DNA from: Acidobacteriota bacterium
GTDB taxonomy: Bacteria; Acidobacteriota; Thermoanaerobaculia; Gp7-AA8
NCBI GenBank assembly: GCA_025463165.1
Contig: JAOBAU010000386.1
Location: forward strand, 1 to 42,256
Length of the DNA: 42,256 nucleotides
Reading direction: 5' to 3'
Positions 1 through 32,220 of this stretch are shown here, piece after piece. Position numbers and translations under genes: made by a program. The stretch's first letter is position 1; every line of letters starts with the position of its first letter. The notes under the pieces are model-generated. The model saw only the letters and a list, made by a program, of their open reading frames with translations. It had not been told where the DNA came from and ran no database searches.

Positions 1-41
1 AACAATGAAATGCAGCATTGCTGCGTCATTCGGAGATCGTG

Positions 42-887: not shown

Positions 888-889
888 CG

Positions 890-1969
890 ATGGATCTCCG
901 TTTCCACTGGATGCTGCCGAAGCCGGGCGAAGTGGCGATGCAGACGGCGCTCGACGCCGTCCGTTTTCGATGCGAATCAATGACCAGCCGGACGTCGCCG
1001 GCGCGGCTCACCGATATGGACGGCTGGCTGAGGTTCGCGCGGCATGCAGAGGAAGCAGGAATCGATTCGTCGCTCATTCCATTGACGCGCAATGAGCCCG
1101 ATCCGCTGCTGGTCGCCTGCGCGCTCGCGCAGGAAACGGAGAAGCTGAAATTCATCATCGCGTATCGGTCGGGATTAATGCAGCCGGCGACGTTCGTGCA
1201 GCAGTTCAATACGCTGTCGCGCTTCAGCGATGGCCGTGTCGCGCTGAATCTTGTCGCCGGCAGTTCGACCGCCGAGCAACACGGCTATGGCGATTTTCTG
1301 TCGCACGATGAACGGTATGCGCGCGCCGAAGAGTTCCTCGCCGTCTGTCACGCGTTCTGGCGCGGCGGCGACGTCGATTTCAACGGCCGCTACTATCAGG
1401 TCGAGCGAGGCCGCATTCACACGACGCTCGGCATGCCCGCGCCGGAAATTTATATCTCCGGCCACTCCGAACAGTCAGAAGAGCTGGCGGTTTCGCAGGG
1501 GACGACCTGGCTGCGTGTCGCCGATGCGCCGGAGAAACTGCAGGCGTCGGTCGGAAGCATGCGCGCGCGCGGCGCGGCGGTCTGTCTCAGCGTCTGCATC
1601 ATCTGCCGCCCTACGCGCGAGGAAGCGATTCGCCATGCGCAGAGCATGCTGCCGGCCGGTACGACGTCGAACCTCACGGCGGTCAAAGACGATTCGCGGA
1701 TGTACGCCGAATCAGCGGCCATTGAGCGCGACGCCTATTTCCTGAAGCCGTGGCTGTGGGCCGGACTCGCGCCGCATTATGGTCCGGTCTGGACGACGCT
1801 GGTCGGCACGCCCGACGACCTCGCGGAAGCATTCATCGAGTACAAGAGAATCGGCGTCAGTGAATTCATCCTCTCCGGCTGGCCGGAGATCGCAGAGCTC
1901 GATCTCTTCGGCCGCGAAGTGTTACCACGTGTTCGCGAGCGCGAGAGCCGCATGCGAGGCGTGGCGTGA
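890..1969 (+). CDS. LLM class flavin-dependent oxidoreductase (SsuD/NtaA-like)
   Basis: This 359-residue TIM-barrel protein belongs to the bacterial luciferase-like family of reduced-flavin-dependent monooxygenases. The opening strand LRFHWMLPKPGE, the flavin-pocket stretch AYRSGLMQPATFVQQ, and DGRVALNLVAGSS followed by DERYARAEEFL are typical of the alkanesulfonate/nitrilotriacetate monooxygenase subgroup. The ATG at 890 matches the start of the paralogues at 1966 and 30750, so I prefer it over an in-frame upstream start at 815 that would lie inside the PhyH gene. The gene overlaps the next LLM gene by four bases (GTGA). Such enzymes need an external flavin reductase, and none is visible in the window. 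The substrate cannot be named. Confidence 0.9.
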   Translation: MDLRFHWMLPKPGEVAMQTALDAVRFRCESMTSRTSPARLTDMDGWLRFARHAEEAGIDSSLIPLTRNEPDPLLVACALAQETEKLKFIIAYRSGLMQPATFVQQFNTLSRFSDGRVALNLVAGSSTAEQHGYGDFLSHDERYARAEEFLAVCHAFWRGGDVDFNGRYYQVERGRIHTTLGMPAPEIYISGHSEQSEELAVSQGTTWLRVADAPEKLQASVGSMRARGAAVCLSVCIICRPTREEAIRHAQSMLPAGTTSNLTAVKDDSRMYAESAAIERDAYFLKPWLWAGLAPHYGPVWTTLVGTPDDLAEAFIEYKRIGVSEFILSGWPEIAELDLFGREVLPRVRERESRMRGVA

Positions 1970-3051
1970 ACGGCGCGCTTCGCTTCCACTGGATGATGCC
2001 GAAGGGCGGCGAAGTCGGGATGCGCACCGCGCAGGAAACGACTCGTGTAGCAACGCGGAAATCCGAATCGCCGGCCGCAATCCCCGACATGGAAGGGTGG
2101 ACGCGCTTCGCGCGCAACGCCGAAGAGGCCGGGATCGAATCGGTGCTGCTGTCGTTCAGCCGTTACGAGCCTGACACGATTCTCATCGCCTGCGCGATGG
2201 GTCGCGCCACCACAAAACTGAAATTCATCGTCGCATACCGCTCGGGACTCATGCAGCCGGCGACGTTCGTGCAGCAGATCAATACGGTCTCCGCGCTGAC
2301 GAACGGGCGCGTAGCGATCAATGTCGTCGCCGGCAGTTCCACCGAGGAACAGCGAGGCTATGGCGATTACCTCGAGCACGACGAGCGTTACGCGCGCGCC
2401 GACGAATTCCTCGGCATCTGTCGCGATTTCTGGCGCGACGGCGCCGGCGTGAATTTCAGCGGGAGCTACTATCGCGTCGAGAACGGCCAGATCAACACGC
2501 CGTTCGTCGATCCCTCGCGCAATGCGCCGGAGATTTATGTTTCCGGACACTCGGACGCCGCCGAACGGCTCGCCTTCTCGAAAGCATCCGCGTGGCTGCG
2601 GCTGATTGATACGCCGGAAAACCTCGCGCCGCTCGTCGCAAAAATGCGCGCCGGGGGCCTGGAGAGCTGTCTGCGTCTCTGCGTCGTCTGCCGCCCGACG
2701 CATGACGAGGCGGTCGCGGCTGCGAAAGCGCTCCGTCCGAGCGAAGCGATCGAGAAAGAAGAACGCGCCATCCTCGAGGCGAGCGATTCAAAGGGATTGA
2801 AGGATGCGCTCAACGCCGCCGATGACGTCGGCTGGCTCGATCGGAACCTCTGGGCAGGGCTCGTTCCGTACTACGGATCCTCGGCAATGACGCTCGTCGG
2901 TTCTCCGGAAGAGTTGTGCGATGCGTTCCTCGCCTACAAAGAGATCGGCGTGACGCAGTTCATCATTGCCGGTTGGCCGAAACTCGAAGAAATGATGATT
3001 TTCGGGCGCGACGTCCTGCCCCGAATCCGACAGATGGAGGATCAATCGTGA
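1966..3051 (+). CDS. LLM class flavin-dependent oxidoreductase, tandem paralogue
   Basis: This 361-residue protein is closely similar over its whole length to the product of 890-1969. It shares LRFHWMMPKGGEVGM, AYRSGLMQPATFVQQ, VVAGSSTEEQRGYGDYLEHDERYARADEFL and a matching C-terminal EIGVTQFIIAGWP segment, so the two arose by tandem duplication. It starts with GTG inside the stop of its neighbour and ends overlapping the GTG of the next gene, which implies translational coupling. It is presumably an FMNH2-dependent monooxygenase. Keeping two paralogues side by side suggests either successive oxidations or a heteromer, as in bacterial luciferase alpha/beta. That interpretation is inference. 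Confidence 0.9.
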   Translation: MNGALRFHWMMPKGGEVGMRTAQETTRVATRKSESPAAIPDMEGWTRFARNAEEAGIESVLLSFSRYEPDTILIACAMGRATTKLKFIVAYRSGLMQPATFVQQINTVSALTNGRVAINVVAGSSTEEQRGYGDYLEHDERYARADEFLGICRDFWRDGAGVNFSGSYYRVENGQINTPFVDPSRNAPEIYVSGHSDAAERLAFSKASAWLRLIDTPENLAPLVAKMRAGGLESCLRLCVVCRPTHDEAVAAAKALRPSEAIEKEERAILEASDSKGLKDALNAADDVGWLDRNLWAGLVPYYGSSAMTLVGSPEELCDAFLAYKEIGVTQFIIAGWPKLEEMMIFGRDVLPRIRQMEDQS

Positions 3052-4223
3052 CCGCAGAAGCCCCGAGCGCCTCGTATCGCAAGATGTATTACGGCCACCC
3101 CGAAAACGTCTTCTATGGCACCGATGACGGCGCGCAGGACGGCTCCTTTCGCGAATTCGCCGAGTTCCGCGCGCACTACGAAAGCGTCGATCCCGCGCGC
3201 CGCGACAACATCCACATGATCAGCGTCGTCGGCGGCCTGTACGGACTGAACCTCATTCCACTATGGAAGCCGAAAAAGCTGACGATCTTCGACGTCAACC
3301 CGACAGCCATCACCTATTTCCGCCTGATCCATCGCGCCTGGACGACGAGCAATGACGCCGCGCAGTTCCTGCAGCGCCTGACGGACGGTGATTACGAAGC
3401 GTTCGACGACGAGGAAGAATTCGTCCGCGAGAACATTCAGTTGCGCCGCAAAGACGCGCTCCCGCGCGAGCGCGGCTCCAGCAAACGTTCTTATGAAGAG
3501 AGCTGGCAATACGCGCTCGAGCATTTCGACGTGACGAAAAAGATCATGCTCGAATCAGAGCTCGAACTGCGCGGCGAACCGATGGAAAGCGACAGCTTCC
3601 GCGAATTCATCCGCGGCAACAAAAACATCTGGATCTACGCGTCGAACATCACCGAGTTCCACTATTTCGACCTCGACTTCGAGCATCCCGACAATGCCGT
3701 AGTCCTGCAGATCATCCACCCCGAACAACCACAACTCCTCGACCTCGCCCCGCACGCCGGCAGTCCTGTGAAGGTGAAATTCGAGATTCCGCTGAAAGCC
3801 GAGCCGCTCGCCCACCCGCCCGTCAGCAAATCGCGCATCGCCACAAACGCCGCCCCGCCCGCCACCGGAACGTTCTCGCAGGCAATCCGAACGGGAAACC
3901 TCGTCTTCCTCGCTGGCCAAACCGGTCGCAATCCCGAAACCGGCGAGCTCGAAGAAGGACTCGAAGCACAAACGCATCGAATGCTGTCGAATGTCGACGC
4001 CATCCTCAACGCCGCCGGCTGTACGCCAGCTGACATCGTGAAAGTAACGCTGCTGATGGCCGACATCAAAGACTTCAAGGCCATCGACGCCATTTACGCC
4101 GCGTGGCTCCCGGGACGCGGAATTACCCCGCTCCCCGCGCGAACCGCGTTTGCGGCGCTCGGCTTACCGGCGGGAGCGCGGGTAATGCTGGATGTGGTGG
4201 CGGCGGCGCCGAAGGGAGGCTAG
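3048..4223 (+). CDS. Two-domain protein: SAM-binding-like N-terminal domain fused to RidA/YjgF
   Basis: The protein has 391 residues from the GTG at 3048. The C-terminal ~130 residues are a RidA/YjgF/UK114 domain, with TGTFSQAIRTGNLVFLAGQTGRNPETGEL, a central TPADIVKVTLLMADIKDF and the ligand-binding Arg in PLPARTAFAALGLPAGARV. The first ~255 residues are not a family I can name with certainty. ISVVGGLYGLNLI (58-70) followed by LTIFDVNPTAITYF (79-91) resembles the glycine loop and acidic strand 2 of a class I SAM-binding Rossmann fold. IWIYASNITEFHYFD later in the domain recalls DUF3419/BtaA-like aminocarboxypropyl transferases. RidA domains hydrolyse reactive imines or enamines, so the fusion suggests an unstable nitrogen intermediate in the pathway. 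The gene ends directly against the convergent gene at 4224. Confidence 0.7.
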   Translation: MTAEAPSASYRKMYYGHPENVFYGTDDGAQDGSFREFAEFRAHYESVDPARRDNIHMISVVGGLYGLNLIPLWKPKKLTIFDVNPTAITYFRLIHRAWTTSNDAAQFLQRLTDGDYEAFDDEEEFVRENIQLRRKDALPRERGSSKRSYEESWQYALEHFDVTKKIMLESELELRGEPMESDSFREFIRGNKNIWIYASNITEFHYFDLDFEHPDNAVVLQIIHPEQPQLLDLAPHAGSPVKVKFEIPLKAEPLAHPPVSKSRIATNAAPPATGTFSQAIRTGNLVFLAGQTGRNPETGELEEGLEAQTHRMLSNVDAILNAAGCTPADIVKVTLLMADIKDFKAIDAIYAAWLPGRGITPLPARTAFAALGLPAGARVMLDVVAAAPKGG

Positions 4224-10170: not shown

Positions 10171-11304
10171 ATGAGGGTGACGATCGTGGTCGGCAGTCTG
10201 CGCGCCGGCGGACAGGAGCGTGTCGCCGCGAACATGGCGAACCACTGGGCGGCGAAAGGGTGGCGGCCGTCGATCGTGACGATCTATCAGCGCGGACGCG
10301 AGATCGCGTTCGACCTGCATCCGAACGTTACCGTGCATGACGTCGGCTGGTTCCGCGCGCCGCGCGAGCACGAGCTTGATGCGGAAACGATGAGTGCGGT
10401 GGCGCGGGCGATGAATCTGTCGCGCGATTCCGAGGAGACGCTGCTCGCGGACGTGGTACTCGTTGGGCTGTTGCGGCGAACGATCATCGAGACTGCAGCC
10501 GATGCGGTGGTCTCGCTCGGTGATTCGACGAACATTCGGATGTTGCTTGCGACGGATGGACTACCGATGCGGCGGATCGTGTCGGAGCATTGCGATCCGC
10601 GGTTTTGCACGATCGGCGACTGGGAAGTTTTGCGGCGGCGGTTTTATCCGCGAGCGGATGCGGTGGTGACGTTGACCGCGGACGCGGCGGGTTTGATCGG
10701 GCGATACGGAACGCGCTGCACCGTCGTACCGAGCTTCGTCGTCGCGTCGCCGGTGCAGCGCAGTGGCACAACACATCACCGCGTGATCACCGTGACCAGG
10801 CTCGATCCTGCCAAGCGAATCGGGATGTTGATCGAAGCATTTGCGCGCGTTGCGCTGCAACATCCGCGGTGGCGGCTGGAGATCTGGGGCGACGGTCCGG
10901 AACGTGCGCGAGTGGATGCACACATCGAGCGGCTGTCGATGCGCGACCGCATCACGCTGCATGGCGCGACGCGTGACGTCTCCGCTGCGCTTGCGCGCGG
11001 CGACATCTTCGCGATGACTTCGGCGACAGAAGGATTTCCGAATGCGCTTTGCGAAGCGATGGCGGCCGGTTTGCCGGCGGTCGTCGTCGATTGCGGCGCA
11101 GGCGTTCGCGACATCGTGCGTGATGGCGTTGATGGACTGCTCGTTCGCAGTCACGCCATTCGCGACTTTGCATCGGCGCTCGAGCGGCTGATGTCGAATG
11201 ATGATGAGCGTCGCGCACTCGCGGCACGTGCGCCGGAGATCGTCGAGCGCTTCAGCGCGGCGCGGGTCATGGGTCAGTGGGAGGAACTGCTCGGATGGAA
11301 CTGA
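10171..11304 (+). CDS. Family GT4 glycosyltransferase
   Basis: The protein has 377 residues from the ATG at 10171. The N-terminal Rossmann domain starts VTIVVGSLRAGGQERVAANMA, a typical GT4 acceptor-side motif with the glycine loop. The C-terminal domain has ITVTRLDPAKRIGMLIEAFA, LEIWGDGPERARV, ITLHGATRDV, and the donor-binding EX7E-like TSATEGFPNALCEAMAAGLP. This is a retaining GT-B enzyme using a nucleotide sugar, usually cytoplasmic and glycan-assembling. In-frame codons continue upstream into the antisense of the SCO genes and are not coding. The gene overlaps the next glycosyltransferase by ten bases, so the two form a transcription unit convergent with the repeat-protein operon. Confidence 0.9.
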   Translation: MRVTIVVGSLRAGGQERVAANMANHWAAKGWRPSIVTIYQRGREIAFDLHPNVTVHDVGWFRAPREHELDAETMSAVARAMNLSRDSEETLLADVVLVGLLRRTIIETAADAVVSLGDSTNIRMLLATDGLPMRRIVSEHCDPRFCTIGDWEVLRRRFYPRADAVVTLTADAAGLIGRYGTRCTVVPSFVVASPVQRSGTTHHRVITVTRLDPAKRIGMLIEAFARVALQHPRWRLEIWGDGPERARVDAHIERLSMRDRITLHGATRDVSAALARGDIFAMTSATEGFPNALCEAMAAGLPAVVVDCGAGVRDIVRDGVDGLLVRSHAIRDFASALERLMSNDDERRALAARAPEIVERFSAARVMGQWEELLGWN

Positions 11305-12044
11305 TTCAGATGCTGTGGGTCGGGCCGCGGCTGTCGGTGATGGAGCGGCTGGCGCTGACGTCGTTCGTCGCGAATGGACACGAAACGCATCTCTACACCT
11401 ACGGCGACGTCGACGGCGTACCGGCCGGCGTCGTCGTGCGCGACGGCCGCGAGATCCTGCCGGAGTCGATGATCTTTTTCTATCGCGAGCATCGCTCGTA
11501 TTCAGGCTTCTCGAATTTCTTTCGCTACAAGCTGCTGCTCGAGCGCGGCGGCTGCTGGGCTGACACCGACATGATCGCGTTGCGGCCGCTCGCCTTCGAC
11601 GATGAGTACGTCTTCTCGAGCGAGGACTCGCCGAAAGGGGCGGTGATCAACGCCGGCTTCATCAAAGCACCGCGCGGCAGCGAGGCGATGCGCTTCGCGT
11701 GGGAGACGTGCGAGGCGAAGGATCGCGACAACATTCGCTGGGGCGAGACCGGACCGGCGCTGGTCGGCGCGACCGTCGAAAAATTCGCGCTGCAGCGTTT
11801 CGTTCGTCCGCCGGAGGTGTTCTGTCCGATCGGCTATCGCGAGTGGGAGTTACTGCTCGCGCCGGAACCGCCTGCTTTGCCGCTGTCGTCTGTGGCGGTT
11901 CATCTCTGGAACGAGATGTGGCGGCGCGGCGGGCGCGACAAAGATGCGTCGCACGATGCGGGCTCGATGTATGAGGAGTTGAAGCGGCGCTACGCGATCA
12001 GAACAGAAACGCGATCCGCCGCAGGAAGCGCGAGTACTTCATGA
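11295..12044 (+). CDS. GT32-like DXD glycosyltransferase
   Basis: The 249-residue protein has the features of the DXD sugar-binding (Gly_transf_sug/GT32) family. It opens ELIQMLWVGPRLSVMERLALTSFVANGHETHLYTY. It then has FSNFFRYKLLLERGGCWADTDMIALRPL, in which DTD is the metal/nucleotide-sugar motif and FRYKLLLERGG is the family hallmark. HLWNEMW near the C-terminus matches the usual late His-Trp motif. It starts inside the end of the GT4 gene. Its last 47 bases overlap the convergent 684-residue gene on the other strand. It is likely to act with the GT4 enzyme on a glycan or glycosylated protein. Confidence 0.85.
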   Translation: MELIQMLWVGPRLSVMERLALTSFVANGHETHLYTYGDVDGVPAGVVVRDGREILPESMIFFYREHRSYSGFSNFFRYKLLLERGGCWADTDMIALRPLAFDDEYVFSSEDSPKGAVINAGFIKAPRGSEAMRFAWETCEAKDRDNIRWGETGPALVGATVEKFALQRFVRPPEVFCPIGYREWELLLAPEPPALPLSSVAVHLWNEMWRRGGRDKDASHDAGSMYEELKRRYAIRTETRSAAGSASTS

Positions 12045-14052
12045 TCGTCTCGACGTACTCGTTCGCCAGCTGCTCGGTGTAACCGCGCTCGGCGAGAAAC
12101 GTTCGCGTCTCGCTCTTCCACGCGTTGCGCGCGGCGGCGTTGCGCGGCGTGCCCATGTAGCGGCCGACGACCTCGTCCCAGTCGCCGAATTTTTCCATGA
12201 ACGCGACCTGGAACAGCTCGCTCGTCGCGGCATCATTGCGCATCGTCGACTGCGTCTTGTCGTACGCGATCTTCATCGCTTCGCGCATCGCGGCCATGCC
12301 GCGGCGTTCGGCGACGCGATTCACTCGATAGATCTCGCGCAGGTAATCGACGGAGCCGCGCACGTAGCGCTTGCCCGAATAGCCGCCGAAGATGAAGCGC
12401 GCATCTTTCGCGGCGCAGCGCACCGAACCGGCCGGGTGATAGGCGTTGCGATGACGCGACGCGAACGACAGCGAGTCATGATCCATGAAGACCATTCGCA
12501 AACGCCATTCGCCATCTTCGAAGACGCTTCGCAATCCGGCGTTGCGCGATACGAACGATTCTCCTTCGCTGTGTCCGCGCGCGCCGAGGAGCGTTCCCCA
12601 CATGCGGCCGAACTGCGCCATCGCGTCGAGGTAATTCGCGTTGGCGCGGCGGCGATTCGCGCGCACCGCGTACGCGGCGTCGAGATAGCTCGCGTAGCTG
12701 CGATACGGAATGCGCGGCGGCTCGTAGACGCAGAGAATCTCGTCGAGCAGCTCATCGGCGAAACGCCGTGCGGCGGCGGGCGTGAAGTCGACGCCGCGAT
12801 CGCGGCCGAAGAAACGCGCATCGCCGTTCGGCGCGAGATATGCGGCGAGCCGCTCGAGGCGAAAGGACGTTGTCCCGACCTGCACCGCCTGCGCCGGCTT
12901 GATCTGGCCGAGGAATTCGAGCGTGAGCGAGAGCTCGTTGATCGGCGGCTCGCGATCCTTCTTCTGCTGGCTGGCGAGCTCCGCGACGCAGTCATTCATC
13001 CGCTCGCGCATCGCTTTGTAACGCTCGCCGAAGACGTGCGGCTCGGTGAAGTAATCGAGCACGTCGAATTCGCCGTCGGGCGTCGGGATCGTGTAGACGG
13101 TGGCGAGGTGAATCGTTCGCGACATCGGCGCATCTACGCCGTGCACGCTGCGATAGAGCCGCGACAAGACGCTCGCCTGCGACGTCTCGAACGCGAGGAG
13201 ATGTTCCATCGAGCCGCCGTGCAGGAAGTGCGAGTTCGGCACGATGTAGCCGCCGCGCGAGAAGACGACGTCGAACGGAAACGGCTCGCGCACGCCGGCG
13301 CGTTTGATCTCGATCTCGATGTCGCTGCCGGGCGGCTTGATCACCGCGACGACGGTGCCGACCGGATGCTCGACGAGCGTGTTGATGTCGTCGCTCGTTC
13401 GTTCGGTGGTGAAGCGAATGGTCGCGTCGCGGCCGAGGTGCTCGACGATCGCCCGATCCATCGGCGCGAGCGTGGAGAGGATGTGATCGGCCTCTTCGTA
13501 GACGAGGTGGTGACCGTAATCGGGCTTGCTTCGCAGTCCGCGCGAGCGGCGGAGATCGCGTTCGATTTGTGCGACGACTTCCTTCGCGCCGAACGTGTAT
13601 CGCGCCAGCGTCAGACGGCAGTCGCGTGCGGCGATGTGAAGAAAGTCGCCGAGCCCTGTATCGGTGGCGATCGATTCATGCACGCGCGCGAGGCGAGACA
13701 TCCGTGCGCGAAGGTGGTGTGCGTCGATGCCGGTGATGCGGAGCTCGCGCATCCACCAATGCCATTCCGATACGTCATCGGTTCGGAGCAGAAGATGTTC
13801 GAGGATGAGCGTTGCCGCGCGGCGCACAGGCCACGCTTCCGCGCCGTCGCGCGCAAGCTCCGCCGCCGTCCGCGCCAGTGCGCGGAGGTAGCCGCGTTGC
13901 GCGAGCACGGCGTCGACGAGCAGCGCGAGATCGCGATGCTCGCCGGCATGCTCGCGCACGAGTCGCTCCGCGCGCGCGCTCGGACGCCGCGGGCGAACCG
14001 GTCGCATCGTGGGGCGGAGCAGACGCTCGCGCCCCGGAGAGATGCTCGACAC
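11998..14052 (-). CDS. Large protein of unknown family with faint kinase-like signatures
   Basis: The 684-residue protein is one I cannot assign to a named family. Residues 1-200 are Arg-rich and helical. From about 232, VGTVVAVIKPPGSDIEIEIKRAG could be kinase-type strands with a nucleotide-binding Lys (239 or 250). SMEHLLAFETSQASVLSRLY (281-300) could be helix C with its Glu. GHSEGESFVSRNAGL (His494, Asn504) then WRLRMVFMDHDSL (Asp524/526) mimic the HxD...N and metal-Asp order of aminoglycoside-phosphotransferase-like folds. This is inference from spacing only. The start is GTG at 14052 or ATG at 14007, and neither has a good ribosome site. It lies nine bases downstream of the Gly/Thr/Lys repeat protein and probably acts on it or with it. 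Confidence 0.6.
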   Translation of the reverse strand: MSSISPGRERLLRPTMRPVRPRRPSARAERLVREHAGEHRDLALLVDAVLAQRGYLRALARTAAELARDGAEAWPVRRAATLILEHLLLRTDDVSEWHWWMRELRITGIDAHHLRARMSRLARVHESIATDTGLGDFLHIAARDCRLTLARYTFGAKEVVAQIERDLRRSRGLRSKPDYGHHLVYEEADHILSTLAPMDRAIVEHLGRDATIRFTTERTSDDINTLVEHPVGTVVAVIKPPGSDIEIEIKRAGVREPFPFDVVFSRGGYIVPNSHFLHGGSMEHLLAFETSQASVLSRLYRSVHGVDAPMSRTIHLATVYTIPTPDGEFDVLDYFTEPHVFGERYKAMRERMNDCVAELASQQKKDREPPINELSLTLEFLGQIKPAQAVQVGTTSFRLERLAAYLAPNGDARFFGRDRGVDFTPAAARRFADELLDEILCVYEPPRIPYRSYASYLDAAYAVRANRRRANANYLDAMAQFGRMWGTLLGARGHSEGESFVSRNAGLRSVFEDGEWRLRMVFMDHDSLSFASRHRNAYHPAGSVRCAAKDARFIFGGYSGKRYVRGSVDYLREIYRVNRVAERRGMAAMREAMKIAYDKTQSTMRNDAATSELFQVAFMEKFGDWDEVVGRYMGTPRNAAARNAWKSETRTFLAERGYTEQLANEYVETIMKYSRFLRRIAFLF

Positions 14053-14061
14053 GCGCGGACG

Positions 14062-14493
14062 TTACTTCTTGCCGGTCTTCGCGCCGCCGGTGGTCGACTT
14101 GCCGCCACCGGTCGTCGTGGTCCCGCCGCCTGTGATCGACTTGCCGCCGCCGGTCGTCGTGGTTCCGCCACCCGTCGTCGTCTTGCCGCCACCGGTCGTC
14201 GTTCCGCCACCGGTCGTGGTTTTGCCGCCGCCGGTCGTCGTCCCGCCGCCCGTGGTCGTCTTCCCGCCACCGGTCGTGGTCTTGCCGCCCGTGGTCGTCT
14301 TTCCACCACCGCCGGTCGACTTGCCGCCGCCCTTTCCGCCTTTACCCTTCTTGCCCTTGGTGATCTTCTTGATCGGTTTCGAGCCGAGGGCGATCGTGAT
14401 CGCGGTCAGGAACTCTTTGGCGCATGCGCGGCTGACGGTGATCACGACGACATCGCTGCCACCACCACCGCCACCATTGGTTTTGCCACCCAT
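14062..14493 (-). CDS. Gly/Thr/Lys repeat protein, possible modified peptide or surface protein
   Basis: The 143-residue protein has three parts. The first is a Gly-rich N-terminus (GGKTNGGGGGGSD). The second is a conserved-looking hydrophobic/amphipathic segment, VVVITVSRACAKEFLTAITIALGSKP (15-40), containing the only Cys. The third, after a Lys/Gly linker, is about 80 residues of repeats of the type KTTTGGG and TTTGGG, ending in GKK. The minus strand is clearly the coding one, because the ATG at 14493 has a perfect AAGGAGGT five bases upstream, the best ribosome site in the area. The opposite strand also lacks stops but has no comparable start. It sits between a GT2 glycosyltransferase and the 684-residue protein with 9-11 base gaps. 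The Thr clusters would suit O-glycosylation or phosphorylation. The function is unknown. Confidence 0.75.
   Translation of the reverse strand: MGGKTNGGGGGGSDVVVITVSRACAKEFLTAITIALGSKPIKKITKGKKGKGGKGGGKSTGGGGKTTTGGKTTTGGGKTTTGGGTTTGGGKTTTGGGTTTGGGKTTTGGGTTTTGGGKSITGGGTTTTGGGKSTTGGAKTGKK
14080..14328 (-). repeat. In-frame tandem repeats encoding KTTTGGG/TTTGGG units
   Basis: About a dozen degenerate 18-24 base units encode Thr3-4 and Gly3 blocks separated by Lys (residues 56-138 of the repeat protein). On the plus strand they appear as variants of CCGCCGGTCGTCGT. Unit length varies in multiples of three, with KTTTGG, KTTTGGG, TTTGGG and TTTTGGG forms, so expansion and contraction have kept the frame. 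Synonymous changes between units suggest selection on the peptide more than recent slippage. Confidence 0.85.
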
Positions 14494-14498
14494 GACTT

Positions 14499-14506
14499 AC
14501 CTCCTT
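14499..14506 (-). promoter_or_regulatory. Perfect Shine-Dalgarno site of the repeat protein
   Basis: The minus strand reads AAGGAGGT, ending five bases before the ATG at 14493. It matches the anti-Shine-Dalgarno sequence fully and overlaps the stop codon of the upstream GT2 gene. The other genes of this operon lack such a site, so the repeat protein is probably made in much greater amount than its neighbours. Confidence 0.85.
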
Positions 14507-15284
14507 ATGCCGGGAAACGTACTTCTGTCGTCTGCAAAGACGATTCGGCCGCATCCTTTGTGAATGTGAGCGGCGCATAACGAGGCCGCGTCCGCAGCCA
14601 GGCGGCGTTGCGAATCCCCTCTTCGGCCATGCGCCGCTTCGGATCGTGATGGCTCAGCCGGTTGTAAAGCATGAGCGGCTCGGCGATGTGATGCGCGCGC
14701 CGCGTCGTCGCCATCTCGAACATCGGAAACATGCATGCGAGGTCCTCGGTGATCCGCAGCCAGCGTCCGCGCTCGTCGCGAAAATCATTCGGATCGATGA
14801 GATCCCACAGCCACTTTTTCCACGTGCGGATCGCGGTGCCGAGCCAGCGCTCGCCGCGGAAATCCGTAATGTCATCGCGATACGCGGGCCAGCGTCCCGG
14901 ATGTCCGGACTGATTGCTGATCCAGCTGCCGTACGTCATCCAGCAGCCGCTCTCCTCGTACGCCGCAACGATGCGCGCGAACGCGTCATCATCGATCAGC
15001 CAGTCGTCGCCATCGAGAATGACGATGATGTCTTCCGCCTCGGCGCCGCTGCGCTCGATGGCGCTGACGATGTTGCGCATCGGGTAACGCCGCCGCGCGT
15101 TCTGCACGATCACGAAACGCTCGTCGCCGCCGCTCGCTTCGAGCGCACGTTCGTACGTTTTGTCGCCGCGCCGATCGACCGTCACGAGCGCCCGCCAGCC
15201 GCCGTAACTCTGGCGGCGCACGGAAGCGAGGCAGTCGCCGATGAACGCCTCACAACGGCCGCAGTTGATGACGACCTTCAGCAT
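14505..15284 (-). CDS. Family GT2 glycosyltransferase
   Basis: This is a 259-residue GT-A fold enzyme. It begins LKVVINCGRCEAFIGDCLASVRRQSYGGW, the normal GT2 start with the SVRRQSY helix. The nucleotide-sugar motif is ILDGDDWLIDDDAF near residue 91-100, and acceptor-side conserved blocks (MTYGSWISNQSG, ITEDLACMFPMFEMA) follow. No membrane helix is present, so it is soluble or peripheral in the cytoplasm. It is the first gene of the operon with the Gly/Thr/Lys repeat protein. The gap to that gene is 11 bases, and its stop lies in that gene's ribosome site. Direct glycosylation of the repeat Thr residues is an attractive but unproved role. Confidence 0.87.
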   Translation of the reverse strand: MLKVVINCGRCEAFIGDCLASVRRQSYGGWRALVTVDRRGDKTYERALEASGGDERFVIVQNARRRYPMRNIVSAIERSGAEAEDIIVILDGDDWLIDDDAFARIVAAYEESGCWMTYGSWISNQSGHPGRWPAYRDDITDFRGERWLGTAIRTWKKWLWDLIDPNDFRDERGRWLRITEDLACMFPMFEMATTRRAHHIAEPLMLYNRLSHHDPKRRMAEEGIRNAAWLRTRPRYAPLTFTKDAAESSLQTTEVRFPA

Positions 15285-15379
15285 GCTCTGTACGGGAAGA
15301 CGCGCCCGCGTTGCACGACGTGAAATCCTTCACGAAAGGGGACGGAAACGCGTCTTTTAGTCAGATGGAGGAATCCTGC

Positions 15380-18300
15380 ATGTCAGCACTTCGTGTCCGT
15401 GGTCTGTCTTCACTCATCCTCGGACTTTTGTTTGCCTCGTGCATGTCGTATGGCGCGTCGCCCGCGCCGCAACCGGCCCCGGCTCCGCAGCCCGCGCCGA
15501 TGCCCGCTCCCGCTCCGATGTCCGACACGACCGGCTGCGAACGAACGATCACCGCGAAAGTGGTGGCGCTCGATCAGCCGTATCTCGTCAATCGTCTCGG
15601 CGCCGCGATGCCCGAGGGGATGGTGTTCGCGCTCGAACGCGATGTGGTGCCGAAGAGCGGAACGGGGACGACGCTAACGCACGGCAACGTGATGCTGCGT
15701 TACGGCAAACGTCCGCGCCCGATCGTGCTGCGCGCGAACGTCGGCGACTGTCTCGCCATCACGTTCCGCAACCTCCTCAGCGACGCACCGGTGGCCACGC
15801 AGCCGGCCACGCGGTACGCGTCGGTACACGTCGCCGGCATGCAGATGGTGAAGACGATTCTCGACGACGGCTCATTCGTCGGCGCGAATGCGAACTCCAC
15901 GATCCCGCCATCGGATACGAACTCGATCACCTACACACTGCGTGCAACGGAGGAAGGAACGTTTCTCCTCAATAGCGAAGGCGCGGCATTCGGCGGCCAG
16001 AACCAGCCGAACGACGGTGCGCAGCAGACGGCCGGACTCTTCGGCGCGGTCAACGTGCAGCCGCGCGGCGCCGAGTGGTATCGCAGCCAGGTGTCGCACT
16101 CCGATCTCGAGTTCGCGATCGACACGACGCACGGCGGCGGCTTCAGCTCCATCGGCCAGCCGTTCATCGATTACACCGCTGTTTATCCTCCGGGCAATCC
16201 GATGGCCGGCACGCCGGTGCTGGCGATGCTGAACAGCAACAACGAGATCGTCCACACCGATCTGACCGCCGTCATCACCGGACCGCATCACGGCCGCTTC
16301 CCGGCCGGCACCAGCGATCCGAATCTGCAGAAGATCAACATCGAGCCGAATCGTCTCGACCCATATCGCGAGTTCACGATCGAGTATCACGAGCTCAATG
16401 ACGCCGTGCAGGCCTTCCCGCTGTTCAACGATCCCGCGCGGCCCGGCATCGCCAACACGCTCGGCGCCGCGGGCGACGCGTTCGCGATCAACTACGGCAC
16501 CGGCGGCATCGGCGCGGAGATTCTCGCGAATCGTTTCGGCGTCGGACCGATGGGCAGCTGTCCCGACTGCCGCTTCGAAGAATTCTTTTTGAGCGCGTGG
16601 TCGAGCGGCGATCCCGCGATGCTCGTCGACGTGCCGGCGAACGTGCCGTGCGGCGACGGCTTCCAGAATCAGACCGCGGTCACCATCGCCGGCGTGCCGA
16701 AGGTTCCGTGCAGCGAAGGGGTGGCCGGCAATGCGCCGAAAGACATCATTCCGGTTCGCAAAGCTCACAAGGCGCTCTTCGATGATGACCCGTCGAACGT
16801 CTATCACAGCTACATCAACGACCGCGTGAAGTTCCGGATCCTCCATTCGGGCACCGGCGTTTCGCACGTCCATCACCTGCACGCGCACCAGTGGGTCCAT
16901 TCGCCGAACAGCGACGGCTCCGCATATCTCGACAGCCAGCTGATCAATCCCGGCAGCGCGTACACGCTGGAGATCGCGTTCAACGGCGGCGGCAATCGCA
17001 ACAAGGTCGTCGGCGACTCGATCTTCCACTGCCACTTCTATCCGCACTTCGCGGCCGGCATGTGGGCGCTCTGGCGTTCGCACGACGTGTACGAAGTCGG
17101 CTCGCCGTACGCGTCGACCGGCTTCGACAAACTGGCGCGCTACAAGACGCGCGCGCTGCCCGACGGCGAGATCGCCGCCGGCACTCCGATCCCGGCGATC
17201 ATTCCGATGCCGACGCTGGCGATGCCGCCGATGCCGGCCGCGGTGACGCTCGTGCCGGTCAACGATCCGAACGGTACGCCCGGTCTGAAGCCGGTCGGCT
17301 ACAAAGCGGAAGTCGATCCGGGCGACATGAACAAGGGCATCAACCCCGGCTTCCCGTTCTTCATCCCCGGCGTGGCCGGCGTCCGCGCGCCGCATCCGCC
17401 GCTCGATTTCGCGACCGACGCCGCCAACAAGCCGTACGACGGCGGCCTGCCGCGGCATCTCATCATCAACGCGAACATCTTCAACGAGCAGCACACGACG
17501 AAGAACTTCAGCAAAGACATGAACAAGGTCAACGCTTACGAGCTGCCGGAAGACGGCACCGCGGAAGAAAAAGTGGCGATGGCCTACCACGAGAAATGTT
17601 TCCATCCGTCATTTACGCCGGAAGGAACCGCGAGCCCGTATCGGACGAACGGCCTCCCGCGCGCGTCGGGCGCGCCGTACGCGAATCCGGGACTCGTGCC
17701 GTATGACGAGAACGATCCGCCGGCCGGCGATCTGCAGTGCAAGCCGATCAACAACTGGATCAAATACAAAGCGGCGGTCATTCAGACCGACTTCGTCTTC
17801 AACAAGAAGGGGTGGCACTATCCGCAGGCGCGGCTGATCACGCTGTGGCGCGACGTGCTGCCGACCGCGTATTCCGACGTGCCGCCGCAGCCGTTCTTCA
17901 TCCGCGCCAATGCCGGTCAGGGCGTCGAGTTCTGGCACACCAATCTCGTGCCAAACTACTTCCTGCTCGACGACTACGAAGTGCGCACGCCGACCGACAT
18001 CATCGGCCAGCACATCCACCTCGTGAAGTTCGACGTCACGTCATCCGACGGCGCCGCGAACGGCTACAACTACGAGGACGGCACGCTCAGCTACGAGGAA
18101 GTGGTCGACCTGCTCAAAGGAATCAACGAGTGCGGCGGCCTCGCGCTGACCGCGAACGACCTGAAGAAGTGCAACACCAACAACGTCAAGCGGGTGAAGC
18201 GCAACCCGGCGGCGCCGCCGACCGAAATCTGCGCCTCGCCCGATCCGGCGCGAACCAAACATTGCACAGAGGAATGGGCCGGAGCGCAGACGACCGTCCA

Positions 18301-21154
18301 GCGCTGGCTGGCCGATCCGATTCCGCACGAGAACATCAACGGCACGCGCACGCTGCGCACCGTCTTCACGCACGATCACTTCGGTCCGTCGACGCACCAG
18401 CAGACCGGCCTCTATGCGGCGCTGCTCGTCGAGCCGACCGGCAGCACGTGGTCGAAGGGCGAGAGCGGCGAGCCGCTTCGCACGCGCGACGACGGCGGTC
18501 CGACCACCTGGAACGCGGTCATCGAAACACCCGGACAGGAGCTGAATACCTATCGCGAATTCGCGCTGGCGATGCAGGACTTCCAGTTCGCGTATCGCGC
18601 CACCAGCCGGCAGAAAGCGAGCAGCGATCCGGACATCGGCTGGTCCGATCCGTCGAACGCCATCGACCCGGTCCCGCAGCAGACCGAGCTCGGCGACATG
18701 CCGCAGCCGCAGATCATCAGCGCCGGTCCGACGCAGGGCACGACGTCGTTCAACTATCGCAACGAGCCGCTCCCCTATCGCGTCTCGCCGCCGGCGGGCT
18801 CGGGAACGGTCGATCCGAAGACGACCGATCTCTCGTACGTCTTCGCATCGAACATCGTCCGCAACGATCCGCAGATGAACAGCCAGCCGCCGCTCGGCGG
18901 CGAGATCAATCCGGCGAAACCGGGTGGCTTCATCTGGCCGAAGAAAGCGCTCACCGAAGGAATGGAGGGCGGCGATCCGTACACGCCGCTGCTCCGCGCG
19001 TATGAAGGCGATCGCGTGCAGTTCCGTATCGTCGTCGGCGCGCACATGCTGCCGCACGCGTTCACGGTCGGCGGCATGAAGTGGCTCTTCGAGCCGTCGT
19101 GGGATGAGTCCGGATTCCGCAGCTCGCAGTCGATGGGCATCTCCGAGCACTTCGAGTTCGTCTTCGAAACGCCGCGCGCCAGCCCGTCGGCGGACGCCGC
19201 GCACAACTGGAGCGATTACCTCTACCAGCCGGACGCGTCGAACCAGAAACACGGCATCGTTGACGGCACGTGGGGCATCTTCCGCGCGTACAAATCGAAG
19301 CTCCCCAATCTCGTGGAGCTCAGCACGAACCGCAACGTCACTCCGCTCCCGCCGGCGACCGCCGAGTGGGGTTACAGCTGTCCGCCGGTCTCGCCCTCGC
19401 AGGTGAAACGGTTCCGCGTCGTCTCGTCGACGCCCGCTCCGTTCAACATGAACAGCCGCGGCGCAGGCGCAGGCGGCCGCTTCAACAACACCATCACCAA
19501 CAATCAGCCGATGATGTTCACGCTGTCCGACAACACGTCGACGACCGAGCCGCTGATCATGCGCGCGAACGCCGGCGACTGCATCGCGCTGACGATCGCC
19601 AACGGATTCAATCCGACCGCGACGCAGTTCACGCAGGGCGGATCGACGGCGGCATTCGCGCCGACCATTCCGCTGCTGCCGTCGAAGCAGGCCGGTCTCA
19701 CGCCGGCGCTGCTGTCGTTCGACGCCATGCGCAGCACCGGCCTGAACGTCGGATTCAATCCCGATCAGGTCGTGCCGATCGGCGGCGAGAAAACGCTCTA
19801 CTGGTACGCGGGACAGACGAAGATTTCGTCGTCCGGTAGCACGGTGACGGTGACCGGAAGACCGATCGAGCTGGGCGGCGTGAATCTGACGCCGTCGGAT
19901 CCGCTCGAGCAGGATCTGCACGGTCTCGTCGGCGGCCTTGTTATCGAGCCGGCCAATACCATCGCCTGCCCCGACGTCTTCAACCCGCGCAACAACATGC
20001 TGCAATACGGTTCCGCGACGATCTATCGCGGCGGCGATTGCACGAATCCGGTCGGACTGCTCTACCGCGAATTCGTGCTGCTGACGCAGGACGATCTCGC
20101 CAGCGTGGCGTGGCCGGGCGCAACCTGGACGCCGCCCGCCGGCACCGCCGTTCCCTCGGCGGCCGGGTCCACGCGCGTCGCCGTCAATTTCCGCGTCGAG
20201 CCGATGGCGTATCGCTTCAACGCCGCAACGTCGACGTTCGTCGGCCGCACCGATATCTGGCAGGGCTATTCAGATGGGCTCGTGCTCGCCGAACCGCAGA
20301 CGCCGATCTTCTCCGCCGCCGCCGGCACTCCGGCGCGCATGCGTCTCCTCCATCCGGGCGGCGCCGGCGATCAGCAGGTGCTCGCGCTGCACGGACACGT
20401 GTGGCAGGAGCTGCCGTACACCGGCACCGGCGCGAACGCCTCCGGCTCCATCGGCAACAACGTGAACTCCCAATACCTCGGCGCGCGCGACAACTTCGGC
20501 ACCAACATGTCGTACGAGATCGATCTGCCGAGCGCCGGCGGCGGCGATCTGTCGAAGAATGTCTGGCCGGTCGCGGGCGACTATCTCTGGCGCACGACTC
20601 CGGCAAACTTCCTCGAGCTCGGTCTCTGGGGCGTCGTCCGCGTCACGGAGAAATCGGGATCGGATGCGGTGCGCATCGCCGGCTCGCAGTTCAGCAACGG
20701 CGAGCTGACCGTGTTCGGCTCAACGACCGTCTACGTCGATCGCAACGCGAATCCGAAGAACGGCAATCGCGCCGCGACCGTGTCGCTGTTCCTCAGCCAG
20801 CCGGGCACGCCGGGCAACGGCACGCAGCTTTCAGCAGACGTGAAGGTCGGCGAGAACGGTCTCTGGAGTTTCAGCACCACGAGCAGCGGCATTACGACCA
20901 ATGATCCGCGCGTCGTGACCGCGATCTCTCCGAATGGCGGCATCGCCACGCATCCGGTCGAGAACGTAATTCTGCTCGGCCAGCCGCAAACACCGCAGCC
21001 TGAAGTCCAGGGTGAGAGCGGCCGCTTCGTCTCCTCGCCGCGTCAGCACGCCGGCGAAGACAAGCCGAAGGATGAGGAAGCGCCGAAGACGCTCACCGCT
21101 CCGAAGCCGATCGAGCAGGGGAAGAAACCGGTCACCACTCCTCCCGCGCATTGA
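15380..21154 (+). CDS. Giant exported multicopper oxidase, MofA/MnxG-like
   Basis: The protein has 1924 residues from the ATG at 15380, with GGAGG eight bases upstream; an in-frame ATG at 15365 overlaps that site. A signal peptide with lipobox-like LLFASC is followed by a Pro/Ala-rich linker. The mature part starts ITAKVVALDQPYLVNRLG, typical of very large oxidases related to manganese-oxidation proteins. Copper motifs are spread over several cupredoxin domains: HVHHLHAHQWVH (496-507), HCHFYPHFAAGMW (from 550), HIH (878-880), HDH (998-1000), AHMLPHAF (His1222, His1226) and LHGHVW (His1671, His1673). The C-terminus is a Lys/Pro/Glu tail. The oxidised substrate is unknown; Mn(II), Fe(II) or a phenolic are options. 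The gene is monocistronic and ends at a hairpin terminator. Confidence 0.88.
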   Translation: MSALRVRGLSSLILGLLFASCMSYGASPAPQPAPAPQPAPMPAPAPMSDTTGCERTITAKVVALDQPYLVNRLGAAMPEGMVFALERDVVPKSGTGTTLTHGNVMLRYGKRPRPIVLRANVGDCLAITFRNLLSDAPVATQPATRYASVHVAGMQMVKTILDDGSFVGANANSTIPPSDTNSITYTLRATEEGTFLLNSEGAAFGGQNQPNDGAQQTAGLFGAVNVQPRGAEWYRSQVSHSDLEFAIDTTHGGGFSSIGQPFIDYTAVYPPGNPMAGTPVLAMLNSNNEIVHTDLTAVITGPHHGRFPAGTSDPNLQKINIEPNRLDPYREFTIEYHELNDAVQAFPLFNDPARPGIANTLGAAGDAFAINYGTGGIGAEILANRFGVGPMGSCPDCRFEEFFLSAWSSGDPAMLVDVPANVPCGDGFQNQTAVTIAGVPKVPCSEGVAGNAPKDIIPVRKAHKALFDDDPSNVYHSYINDRVKFRILHSGTGVSHVHHLHAHQWVHSPNSDGSAYLDSQLINPGSAYTLEIAFNGGGNRNKVVGDSIFHCHFYPHFAAGMWALWRSHDVYEVGSPYASTGFDKLARYKTRALPDGEIAAGTPIPAIIPMPTLAMPPMPAAVTLVPVNDPNGTPGLKPVGYKAEVDPGDMNKGINPGFPFFIPGVAGVRAPHPPLDFATDAANKPYDGGLPRHLIINANIFNEQHTTKNFSKDMNKVNAYELPEDGTAEEKVAMAYHEKCFHPSFTPEGTASPYRTNGLPRASGAPYANPGLVPYDENDPPAGDLQCKPINNWIKYKAAVIQTDFVFNKKGWHYPQARLITLWRDVLPTAYSDVPPQPFFIRANAGQGVEFWHTNLVPNYFLLDDYEVRTPTDIIGQHIHLVKFDVTSSDGAANGYNYEDGTLSYEEVVDLLKGINECGGLALTANDLKKCNTNNVKRVKRNPAAPPTEICASPDPARTKHCTEEWAGAQTTVQRWLADPIPHENINGTRTLRTVFTHDHFGPSTHQQTGLYAALLVEPTGSTWSKGESGEPLRTRDDGGPTTWNAVIETPGQELNTYREFALAMQDFQFAYRATSRQKASSDPDIGWSDPSNAIDPVPQQTELGDMPQPQIISAGPTQGTTSFNYRNEPLPYRVSPPAGSGTVDPKTTDLSYVFASNIVRNDPQMNSQPPLGGEINPAKPGGFIWPKKALTEGMEGGDPYTPLLRAYEGDRVQFRIVVGAHMLPHAFTVGGMKWLFEPSWDESGFRSSQSMGISEHFEFVFETPRASPSADAAHNWSDYLYQPDASNQKHGIVDGTWGIFRAYKSKLPNLVELSTNRNVTPLPPATAEWGYSCPPVSPSQVKRFRVVSSTPAPFNMNSRGAGAGGRFNNTITNNQPMMFTLSDNTSTTEPLIMRANAGDCIALTIANGFNPTATQFTQGGSTAAFAPTIPLLPSKQAGLTPALLSFDAMRSTGLNVGFNPDQVVPIGGEKTLYWYAGQTKISSSGSTVTVTGRPIELGGVNLTPSDPLEQDLHGLVGGLVIEPANTIACPDVFNPRNNMLQYGSATIYRGGDCTNPVGLLYREFVLLTQDDLASVAWPGATWTPPAGTAVPSAAGSTRVAVNFRVEPMAYRFNAATSTFVGRTDIWQGYSDGLVLAEPQTPIFSAAAGTPARMRLLHPGGAGDQQVLALHGHVWQELPYTGTGANASGSIGNNVNSQYLGARDNFGTNMSYEIDLPSAGGGDLSKNVWPVAGDYLWRTTPANFLELGLWGVVRVTEKSGSDAVRIAGSQFSNGELTVFGSTTVYVDRNANPKNGNRAATVSLFLSQPGTPGNGTQLSADVKVGENGLWSFSTTSSGITTNDPRVVTAISPNGGIATHPVENVILLGQPQTPQPEVQGESGRFVSSPRQHAGEDKPKDEEAPKTLTAPKPIEQGKKPVTTPPAH

Positions 21155-24511: not shown

Positions 24512-25242
24512 CTCGCTCTATAAGCGGCCATCGACTCCGCGAATTCTTCGGGCGGCGGATCACGGTGTACTTCGAGGTGCGTGACGTCGCGGCCGCGCGC
24601 GACGACGACCGGTGTCACGGAGCGGAGCATGGCCGGCGTCGTGTAGCGGACGATGAACCCGGTGCGAGTCCAGTCCGATCGATTGGCGTTGCTGCCGTGA
24701 ATGATGTCGACGTGATGCAGCGACATCTCGCCCGCTTTCAGTTGCACGTCGACCGCATCCGCTTCGTCGACCTGCACCGCGATCTCGTGGCCGTGATTGA
24801 GCATGTTCAGCGGCTTGTTGGTTTCGGCGTGCTCGAGTTTTTGTTTCTGCGATCCGGGAACGACGCGCATGCAGCCGCTCTCGACGGTGCTGTCGCTCAG
24901 CGCGATCCAGGCGGAGACACTCGGTGCGTCGCCGAGGAAGCCGGCGTAGGCGCCGTCCTGATGCCATGCGACGAAGCTGGGGTCGTGCGGCGGCTTCGAG
25001 AGAATCAGCGTTCCCCATACGATCACGTCGTCGCCGATCAGCGACGCTACTTCATCGACGACGCGGGGATGCCGCGCCAGCTCGTACGCCCATCGAAAAT
25101 AGAGATGCGAACGGTCGAAGCGTTTCAACGGCTCGTCGTACGTCGCGGTGATGCGCGCGTAGTTTTGCTGCGCGGCGCGCAGCTCTTCGTCGCTCAGGAC
25201 GCGAATCGGAAAGCGGACACCTTCCTGCGCGAACGTGGTCAC
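24508..25242 (-). CDS. PhyH-family Fe(II)/2-oxoglutarate oxygenase
   Basis: The protein has 244 residues from the GTG at 25242, which overlaps the aminotransferase stop (GTGA). Motifs are FVAWHQDGAYAGF (His94, Asp96), GCMRVVPGSQK (125-133), KAGEMSLHHVDIIHGSNANRS with distal His182, and an Arg in TRTGFIVRY for 2-oxoglutarate. The Asp is intact, so hydroxylation is expected over chlorination. In-frame codons upstream to 25356 lie inside the aminotransferase and are ignored. It resembles dioxygenases that act on small metabolites in natural-product clusters. It is one of three HxD oxygenases in this operon and a fourth occurs at 42-887. Confidence 0.88.
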   Translation of the reverse strand: MTTFAQEGVRFPIRVLSDEELRAAQQNYARITATYDEPLKRFDRSHLYFRWAYELARHPRVVDEVASLIGDDVIVWGTLILSKPPHDPSFVAWHQDGAYAGFLGDAPSVSAWIALSDSTVESGCMRVVPGSQKQKLEHAETNKPLNMLNHGHEIAVQVDEADAVDVQLKAGEMSLHHVDIIHGSNANRSDWTRTGFIVRYTTPAMLRSVTPVVVARGRDVTHLEVHRDPPPEEFAESMAAYRAR

Positions 25243-26558
25243 GAAAACACCTTCTCGATCGCGCGCACGACGTCGCGCATGTCGTCGGTCGTGTTCGGCG
25301 GATTGACGAGCGGAAACCAGAGCAGCTCGCGATTCAGCGCTTCCGATCGCGGACACGTTCCCGTTCCGTAGCGCACGGCCGAATCGTTGAACGGCGCGCC
25401 GCGGGTGCCGTACGCGATCCGCCGCGTGAAGATCGGATTCTCGTGCAGCAGGCGCGGATAGCCGGCCACGAGAGGGATTCCTTCCGCGGCGAGAATGCGC
25501 ACGAGCTCATCGCGCGACGGCATCGAAGCGCCGGAGACATAGCGAAACTTCGGCATGTAGCAGGCGCGCTCCGCGTTCGCGGCGAGTTGCTGCGGAACAA
25601 ATTGCGGGAACGGGCGCAGCCCTTCGATGAGCGCGTTCGCATTCTCGTTGCGCACTTCATTGCGCTCGTCGAGTTGCTCGAACTGCGCGACCGCCACCGC
25701 CGCCTGCAGTTCCGTCAGCCGGAAGTTCATCCCGACGACGTTGGCCAGTTCGTCGTCGCCCCACGATTCGTCGGCCGCTCCTTCACCATGATTGCGAATG
25801 AGGCGCGACTTGATGGCGATGCGCGGATCGTTCGTGACGACGACCCCGCCTTCGCCACAGGTGATGCTCTTCGTTTCGGTGAGCGAGTAAACGCCGGCGT
25901 CGCCGATGGCGCCGACTTCGACGCCGTCGATGCGTGCGCCGAGCGACTGTGCGCAATCCTCGATCACCTTCAGGTCGTGCCGCCGCGCGAGCTCGACGAT
26001 CGCGCGCATGTCGGCCGGAATGCCGCCGAGGTGGACGGCGACGATGGCGCGCGTGCGCGGCGTGATTTTCAGCGCGCCGTCGCGCGGATCGATGCAGAAC
26101 GAATGCGGATCGACTTCGACGAACACCGGCACCGCCTGAAACGCGAGGATCGCGGTCGCCGTCGCGTGGAATGACATGCACGGCACGAGCACTTCATCGC
26201 CCGGCTCGAGGCCGATCGCGCCGAACGCCATCACGAGGCCGGACGTCGCCGAGTTGCAACCGATCGCGAACGTCGTCCGCGTGCGCGCGGCGAACATCGA
26301 TTCGAGCAGCCGCACGTAGCGGCCGCCGAGGTAGCGGACGTCGTGAAGATCGCGCGCGATTGAGGATGGGGTTGCGCAGAGATCGCGAACGTTCGCGCCG
26401 GCGCCGGCGCGGAAACCGGACCAGTTGCAGCTTTCGAGCGCGTCGAGCAGCAGCTCGCGCTCGCGGCCGCCGATGTGACAGTTGGGTGCGAACGGACGGG
26501 TGCGAATCGGCGTACCGCCATCGATCGCGAGTCGCGCCGATGTATCGATCGCCGTCAT
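25239..26558 (-). CDS. DegT/DnrJ/EryC1/StrS family PLP aminotransferase
   Basis: The 439-residue protein has the standard layout: N-terminal AIDGGTPIRTRPF (11-23), CNSATSGLVMAFGAIGLEPGDEVLVPCMSFHATATAIL, IEDCAQSLGA (199-208) with the PLP-ring Asp201 and Gln204, and SLTETKSITCGEGG with the Schiff-base Lys230. The GGxPxR start is shared by aminotransferases of aminocyclitol and AHBA-type pathways as well as by sugar aminotransferases. It overlaps both neighbours by four bases. It presumably aminates a keto-sugar or cyclic ketone. With the shikimate-dehydrogenase-like gene upstream in the same operon, a cyclohexane-derived substrate is possible but unproved. Confidence 0.9.
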   Translation of the reverse strand: MTAIDTSARLAIDGGTPIRTRPFAPNCHIGGRERELLLDALESCNWSGFRAGAGANVRDLCATPSSIARDLHDVRYLGGRYVRLLESMFAARTRTTFAIGCNSATSGLVMAFGAIGLEPGDEVLVPCMSFHATATAILAFQAVPVFVEVDPHSFCIDPRDGALKITPRTRAIVAVHLGGIPADMRAIVELARRHDLKVIEDCAQSLGARIDGVEVGAIGDAGVYSLTETKSITCGEGGVVVTNDPRIAIKSRLIRNHGEGAADESWGDDELANVVGMNFRLTELQAAVAVAQFEQLDERNEVRNENANALIEGLRPFPQFVPQQLAANAERACYMPKFRYVSGASMPSRDELVRILAAEGIPLVAGYPRLLHENPIFTRRIAYGTRGAPFNDSAVRYGTGTCPRSEALNRELLWFPLVNPPNTTDDMRDVVRAIEKVFS

Positions 26559-30750: not shown

Positions 30751-30753
30751 CGC

Positions 30754-32205: not shown

Positions 32206-32220
32206 GTCGTCTCCATTCCC

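Follow-up and report, generated by a model that had tools for sequence, protein, structure and literature searches.

A small basic repeat protein and a conserved large neighbour in Acidobacteriota suggest an undescribed peptide-modification system

Kinase-type activation of Ser and Thr residues on a ribosomal peptide is characteristic of class V lanthipeptide systems. For class III systems, PMC10604976 describes activation of this type. CylM, with the conserved active-site residues Lys274, Asp347, His349, Asn352 and Asp364, has a kinase-like active site in a lipid-kinase-like fold without detectable kinase sequence similarity (PMC4550811). Diatom silaffins are short basic Lys/Ser-rich repeat peptides phosphorylated by a dedicated kinase, tpSTK1, which prefers basic substrates; they also undergo hydroxylation and methylation of Lys and glycosylation and sulfation of hydroxyls (PMC4557024). 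Here we describe a locus in a 42,256-nucleotide stretch of DNA from an Acidobacteriota bacterium (GTDB lineage Bacteria; Acidobacteriota; Thermoanaerobaculia; Gp7-AA8; assembly GCA_025463165.1, contig JAOBAU010000386.1; hereafter the window), at which a 143-residue basic repeat protein is encoded beside a 684-residue protein of an unnamed family, a pair that suggests an undescribed peptide-modification system. As with the LanM enzymes (PF13575), the large protein adjoins a short Ser/Thr-rich peptide of leader-core type and displays a similar order of motifs (KP, a loop with N, D.[ED].L); however, it has no LanC part, GESF takes the place of the catalytic D.H, and, with no PF13575 match and only 0-1 Cys per peptide available for thioether rings, the systems do not conform to class II lanthipeptides. 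They likewise differ from the class III/V combinations of kinase and lyase, as the 684-residue protein matches neither Pkinase nor lyase nor LanC and no such neighbours were seen. Genes for PhyH, methyltransferase, sulfotransferase and glycosyltransferase (GT) proteins near some of the acidobacterial small peptides recall the silaffin modifications, but this is a compositional analogy only, with neither homology nor a signal peptide nor any connection to minerals in evidence; what silaffins illustrate by analogy is that basic Lys/Ser-repeat peptides can be heavily modified.

The small protein (14062-14493, minus strand) and the large one (11998-14052, minus strand) follow a GT2 glycosyltransferase gene (14505-15284, minus strand; PF00535, E 3e-13), the first of the operon, with intergenic gaps of 11 and 9 bases, just as a preliminary description made from the bare sequence had reported. 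Searches of the phylum and of the class recovered five Acidobacteria homologues of the large protein, in the genomes designated G172, G246, G008, G253 and G256, which are 32-48% identical to the window protein (G000) across most of its length; the named relatives are metagenome-assembled Acidobacteria, and judged from the alignment the family is conserved full length. It is rare, occurring in 4 of 149 class genomes and in 4 of 396 phylum genomes, the latter count being a lower bound as just two candidates per genome were scored. A scan of the genome collection with the single protein as query gave no matches, and one with a four-row alignment returned only two contigs, both from Acidobacteria and both already among the homologues; none was found in viral contigs and plasmids. 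In five of the six loci, drawn from two classes (the window, G253, G246, G172 and G008), the large gene is the immediate neighbour of a small-protein gene and the gene order does not change, with one small basic protein directly upstream of the large gene in G172, G008 and G253 and two in G246. The co-occurrence check proposed earlier for the N-terminus of the repeat protein and the large protein thus finds the two together at five loci of six, and as their adjacency is preserved in further genera and in another class, the gene pair is more than chance. G172 and G008 (loci L021 and L023) belong to that other class and have just the small protein and the enzyme in the 7-14 kb examined; in G008 the pair sits between tpiA-secG and ribBA (GAPDH, triosephosphate isomerase, SecG and RibBA by sequence inspection). 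As these two loci hold only the peptide and the enzyme, the minimal unit is this pair, and the glycosyltransferases and oxygenases seen elsewhere look like lineage additions and not part of the core.

The small protein of the window comprises 52 Gly, 39 Thr and 21 Lys among its 143 residues. Common to the small proteins is an N-domain of about 40 residues (residues 13-53 in the window; 14335-14457, minus strand), made up of a V.V.L-like strand and an amphipathic helix with the pattern A.EL..AL..A.G, with a Lys-rich linker after it; most pairs score z 4-16 against shuffles, while an extra N-terminal copy in G253 is more weakly similar to some of the other copies. Across 147 class genomes a profile of this domain matched convincingly solely at the window locus and its syntenic counterparts, with no second convincing place; the next matches (E 0.001-0.1) are mostly short, lie inside long frames and were judged to be chance, without one-by-one inspection. 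The tails that follow are hypervariable, consisting of Lys, Ser, Thr, Gly and Ala in differing proportions and lengths, with GGG(K)TTT units as the putative core in the window (14065-14322, minus strand), GGKPSTGGSK in G253, GKSEPKS in G172, SSAKSSAK in G008 and APKSVA in one G246 protein. When units picked by pattern are compared in the window, the codon pairs that differ do so mostly synonymously (62 synonymous versus 25 nonsynonymous in the Thr triplets, 66 versus 0 in the Gly triplets), and therefore the peptide repeat itself appears to be maintained. The short open reading frame (ORF) seen here, with its conserved, leader-like N-terminus and variable C-terminal part, is what is looked for in a precursor of a ribosomally synthesised and post-translationally modified peptide (RiPP), as is an adjoining enzyme gene, here present at the five loci and with a putative modifying role. 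The net charges of the small proteins are +20, +31, +15, +10, +6 and +3, the last belonging to a G246 protein with 6 Lys only. Adjacency of Lys to Ser or Thr is mildly above shuffles when all tails are pooled (27 of 5000), with no significant excess in the window's own peptide. No family in Pfam, NCBIfam, PADLOC or PHROGs matched the small protein. Its hydrophobic segment had been offered as either a leader or a membrane anchor; its conservation ahead of a hypervariable tail speaks for the leader, and the anchor was rejected, the segment having Arg, Lys and Glu inside it and a best 19-residue hydropathy of 1.36. In G246, two tandem N-domain small proteins precede one enzyme gene (L034:13174-13775), the second with an Ala/Pro/Lys/Ser tail that ends in CLALIWPFVA.

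The small ORF does have the ribosome site remarked upon at the outset, AAGGAGG (14500-14506, minus strand), which overlaps the stop codon of the GT2 gene. A GGAGG-containing site precedes all small ORFs across the loci except the second of G246 (GGGGGT, weaker), whereas no clear site precedes any of the six large genes, that of the window starting at GTG without a site of its own. The start of the large gene is never more than 35 nt away from the stop codon of the small ORF, and in G008, G253 and G256 the two touch or overlap. Read from sequence, this pattern fits an abundantly made substrate and a translationally coupled enzyme. No sigma-70-like promoter was found in 11800-15500. Antisense ORFs over the repeat (14009-14563, plus strand) and over the enzyme (12436-14580, plus strand) were rejected, as homology favours the minus strand.

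That the large protein belongs to no recognised family, as first proposed, is upheld by the lack of any credible match in Pfam, NCBIfam, PHROGs and PADLOC, or in the PDB sequences searched with the family profile. Its members share a fixed order of blocks: GTVV..[KR]PPGS..E.E[IL]KR.G, an acidic residue (in an [FW][ED] pair) on the helix that follows, GESF..RN.GLR behind a long helix and, last, DHD.L, which a predicted beta hairpin precedes. In the window, the first of these lies within LVE.P.GTVV..[IVL]KPPGS..E.EIKR.G (residues 226-253; 13294-13377, minus strand), where AlphaFold2 (AF2) predicts strands at 234-238 and 247-251 and where K240 or K250 is the candidate ATP-binding lysine. The GESF..RN.GLR block (residues 497-508; 12529-12564, minus strand), with G497, E498, S499, F500, R503, N504, G506, L507 and R508 invariant in all six sequences, is a candidate catalytic loop, and DHD (residues 524-526; 12475-12483, minus strand), with D524, H525 and D526 all invariant and placed after predicted strands 505-512 and 515-521, is a candidate DFG-like motif. 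Two AF2 models (pTM 0.76 and 0.79) run in the order strands, helix with the conserved acidic residue, strands, long helix, candidate catalytic loop, beta hairpin, DHD. The candidate residues K240/K250, E498..N504 and D524 stand in kinase-like order, with K250, N504 and D524 invariant, although the Asp-His of known loops is missing; LanM sequences from the same phylum read YKP[RK] ... D.H.EN ... [IV]D.E.L. The predicted strands-helix-loop-DHD order is also that of PI3K/PIKK, HipA and other atypical kinases, but there is no significant fold or sequence match to any of them. Neither PF13575 (by hmmscan) nor PF07804 (HipA) matched the 684-residue protein, and searches of its own genome for both were negative; hhalign against LanM and HipA sets gave no signal, which is uninformative, as the LanM-HipA control likewise failed. 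The succession of motifs, together with the secondary structure that is predicted, suggests that the enzyme is an atypical kinase or LanM-dehydratase-like protein acting on the Ser and Thr of the tail; taken alone, kinase chemistry is a lead that we hold at somewhat less than even confidence.

In light of these observations, the reading that we favour, with a confidence just short of even, is that the small protein is a leader-core peptide served by a dedicated modifying enzyme, most likely through ATP-dependent phosphorylation. We posit that the small protein would be made in large amounts off its strong ribosome site and the roughly 690-residue enzyme translated by coupling on the same message. 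The N-domain would act as a leader or docking part to which the enzyme binds, and the disordered Lys/Thr/Ser/Gly-rich tail would be the modified part, on whose Ser/Thr hydroxyls the enzyme would act. An atypical kinase fold would most likely phosphorylate these at the expense of ATP, possibly with elimination next, as in the LanM dehydratases. In some lineages including the window, PhyH, luciferase-like monooxygenase (LLM) and GT2/GT4/GT32 proteins may further hydroxylate, oxidise or glycosylate the product. The earlier proposal that the repeat is the substrate of its neighbours is supported for the large protein, of which the repeat would be the partner or substrate, and is weaker for the glycosyltransferases, which are missing from the 7-14 kb examined at L021 and L023; the large protein itself becomes the candidate for peptide modification. 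More tentatively, and on balance doubtfully, the pair may represent a new bacterial class of modified peptides, in which an atypical kinase- or dehydratase-like enzyme acts on long Lys-Thr-Gly repeats and the product is a basic polymer bearing many modifications, not a small cyclic peptide, with LLMs, Fe(II)/2-oxoglutarate (2OG) oxygenases and several glycosyltransferases added in some Acidobacteria. If the proposed system is real, its enzymes would add a family that neither Pfam nor NCBIfam contains, and precursors of this type, long basic Thr/Gly/Lys repeats that are nearly Cys-free, would be unlikely to be visible to mining tools built on known enzymes; the two-gene versions of G172 and G008 make modification of the peptide by the enzyme directly testable.

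Several observations weigh against the favoured reading. Neither model has a significant Foldseek match in the PDB (best E 1.6 and 0.13), and a single run against viral models likewise gave nothing significant (best E 0.41); kinases, PIKK/PI3K among them, come up repeatedly in the matches, but at chance level only. Model confidence is low within and beside the catalytic segments, and the Asp-His of LanM and PI3K is not conserved, GESF standing in place of D.H. The enzyme of G256 is preceded only by a 25-residue Lys-rich ORF without the N-domain. No leader peptidase or exporter was noticed among the annotated neighbours, no dedicated search having been made. Finally, only six sequences of the enzyme family are known, from mostly fragmented assemblies.

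Apart from the minimal pairs, the enzyme is found in a wider cluster that also includes the oxygenases at 18-3051, which the preliminary description had left unconnected. In the window these are a PhyH-type Fe(II)/2OG oxygenase (18-887, plus strand; PF05721), whose gene lies at the edge of the contig and whose homologue on that of G253 is 64% identical, and two LLMs (815-1969, plus strand, PF00296; and LLM2, 1966-3051, plus strand); next comes an unnamed domain of about 290 residues fused to a RidA-like domain (2916-4223, plus strand; PF01042), both parts of which have homologues in G253. A run of some 6 kb, in which the genes have no obvious part in the system (response regulator, macro domain, cytochrome c, SCO1), divides this block from a GT4 glycosyltransferase (10225-11304, plus strand; homologues in the G246 and G253 clusters, L034 and L035) and a GT32-like one (11277-12044, plus strand; homologues in G253, 62%, and G256, 52%). 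Both converge on the enzyme gene, as described at first, and are recognised by Pfam, the latter weakly yet above cut-off (PF04488/PF04572). A single G253 contig bears homologues of PhyH, the LLMs, the RidA fusion, GT4, GT32, the enzyme, GT2 and a multicopper oxidase. The G256 cluster has two LLMs, GT2, the enzyme and GT32, with a PhyH-like gene (by inspection), a methyltransferase and GT4 nearby, and that of G246 has two LLMs, a PhyH-like gene (by inspection), GT4, a sulfotransferase, the two small proteins and the enzyme. Among the sampled genomes, to which all co-occurrence counts refer, close relatives of the LLMs (E<1e-60; LLM2 included) are found in exactly the 4 of 147 class genomes that carry the enzyme, for which chance would be 5e-8 if genomes were independent; they are not, three being from one family, the other sampled members of which lack both.

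This exact co-occurrence, together with the resemblance of the LLM, PhyH, DegT, acyl-CoA dehydrogenase and RidA genes to small-molecule or sugar biosynthesis, could mean that the enzyme has as its substrate some metabolite from the oxygenase-glycosyltransferase cluster and that the small protein is its non-catalytic subunit or carrier and not a product. We consider this improbable, as the pair stands without those biosynthetic genes in G172 and G008 and hypervariable Ser/Thr/Lys-rich tails would be unusual in a carrier or subunit. The housekeeping surroundings in G008, in turn, along with net charges of +3 to +31 and Lys/Ala/Pro/Ser tails, accord with a histone-H1-like or polyanion-binding protein, the binding of which the neighbouring enzyme would tune, with the biosynthetic genes as bystanders; yet the N-domain gives no meaningful score against DNA-binding families, one G246 protein has few Lys and a net charge of just +3, and the LLM association across four genomes is tight, so that this too is improbable, to the same degree.

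The glycoprotein system raised in the preliminary description, in which GT2, GT4 and GT32 would O-glycosylate the Thr clusters to give a surface or secreted glycoprotein with the large protein as an accessory, is unlikely, if the least so of the three. The Thr clusters are suitable for O-glycosylation, GT2 is co-operonic in the window and G253 and adjoins the enzyme in G256, and its close orthologues (51-62%) are confined to 3 of 147 class genomes, all enzyme-bearing. At least one of the three glycosyltransferases is represented in each of the four clusters other than L021 and L023, but G246 has a nearby GT4 homologue only, and no GT2, GT4 or GT32 homologue was found in the stretches examined at L021 and L023, so that these genes are not conserved with the supposed acceptor and the glycosylation reading is weakened. 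Moreover, the tails in G172 and G008 have no Thr triplets and the small protein has no anchor-like segment. Homologues of the repeat protein without the large protein or the glycosyltransferases had been named as what would count against the original proposal; half of this is seen, in the GT-free pairs of G172 and G008.

Further along the window, a second operon-like block (25239-33453, minus strand) codes for a DegT aminotransferase, PhyH, a GT-like protein that no Pfam family matches, a protein that on inspection resembles MptE, a 2OG-Fe(II) oxygenase-like protein, an acyl-CoA dehydrogenase and one more LLM, the third (46% to LLM2), and probably belongs to the same biosynthetic region. Within it lies an unusual fusion of a multi-pass membrane protein to a low-molecular-weight phosphotyrosine phosphatase domain (30754-32205, minus strand; PF01451). 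Divergent from the GT2 operon is a 1947-residue frame for a multicopper-oxidase-like protein (15311-21154, plus strand), a neighbour kept in G253 (62%). In G253, two methyltransferase-like genes of the same type (F.YF...LDFGGNVGN) lie around PhyH and the pair of LLMs (L035:617-7121).

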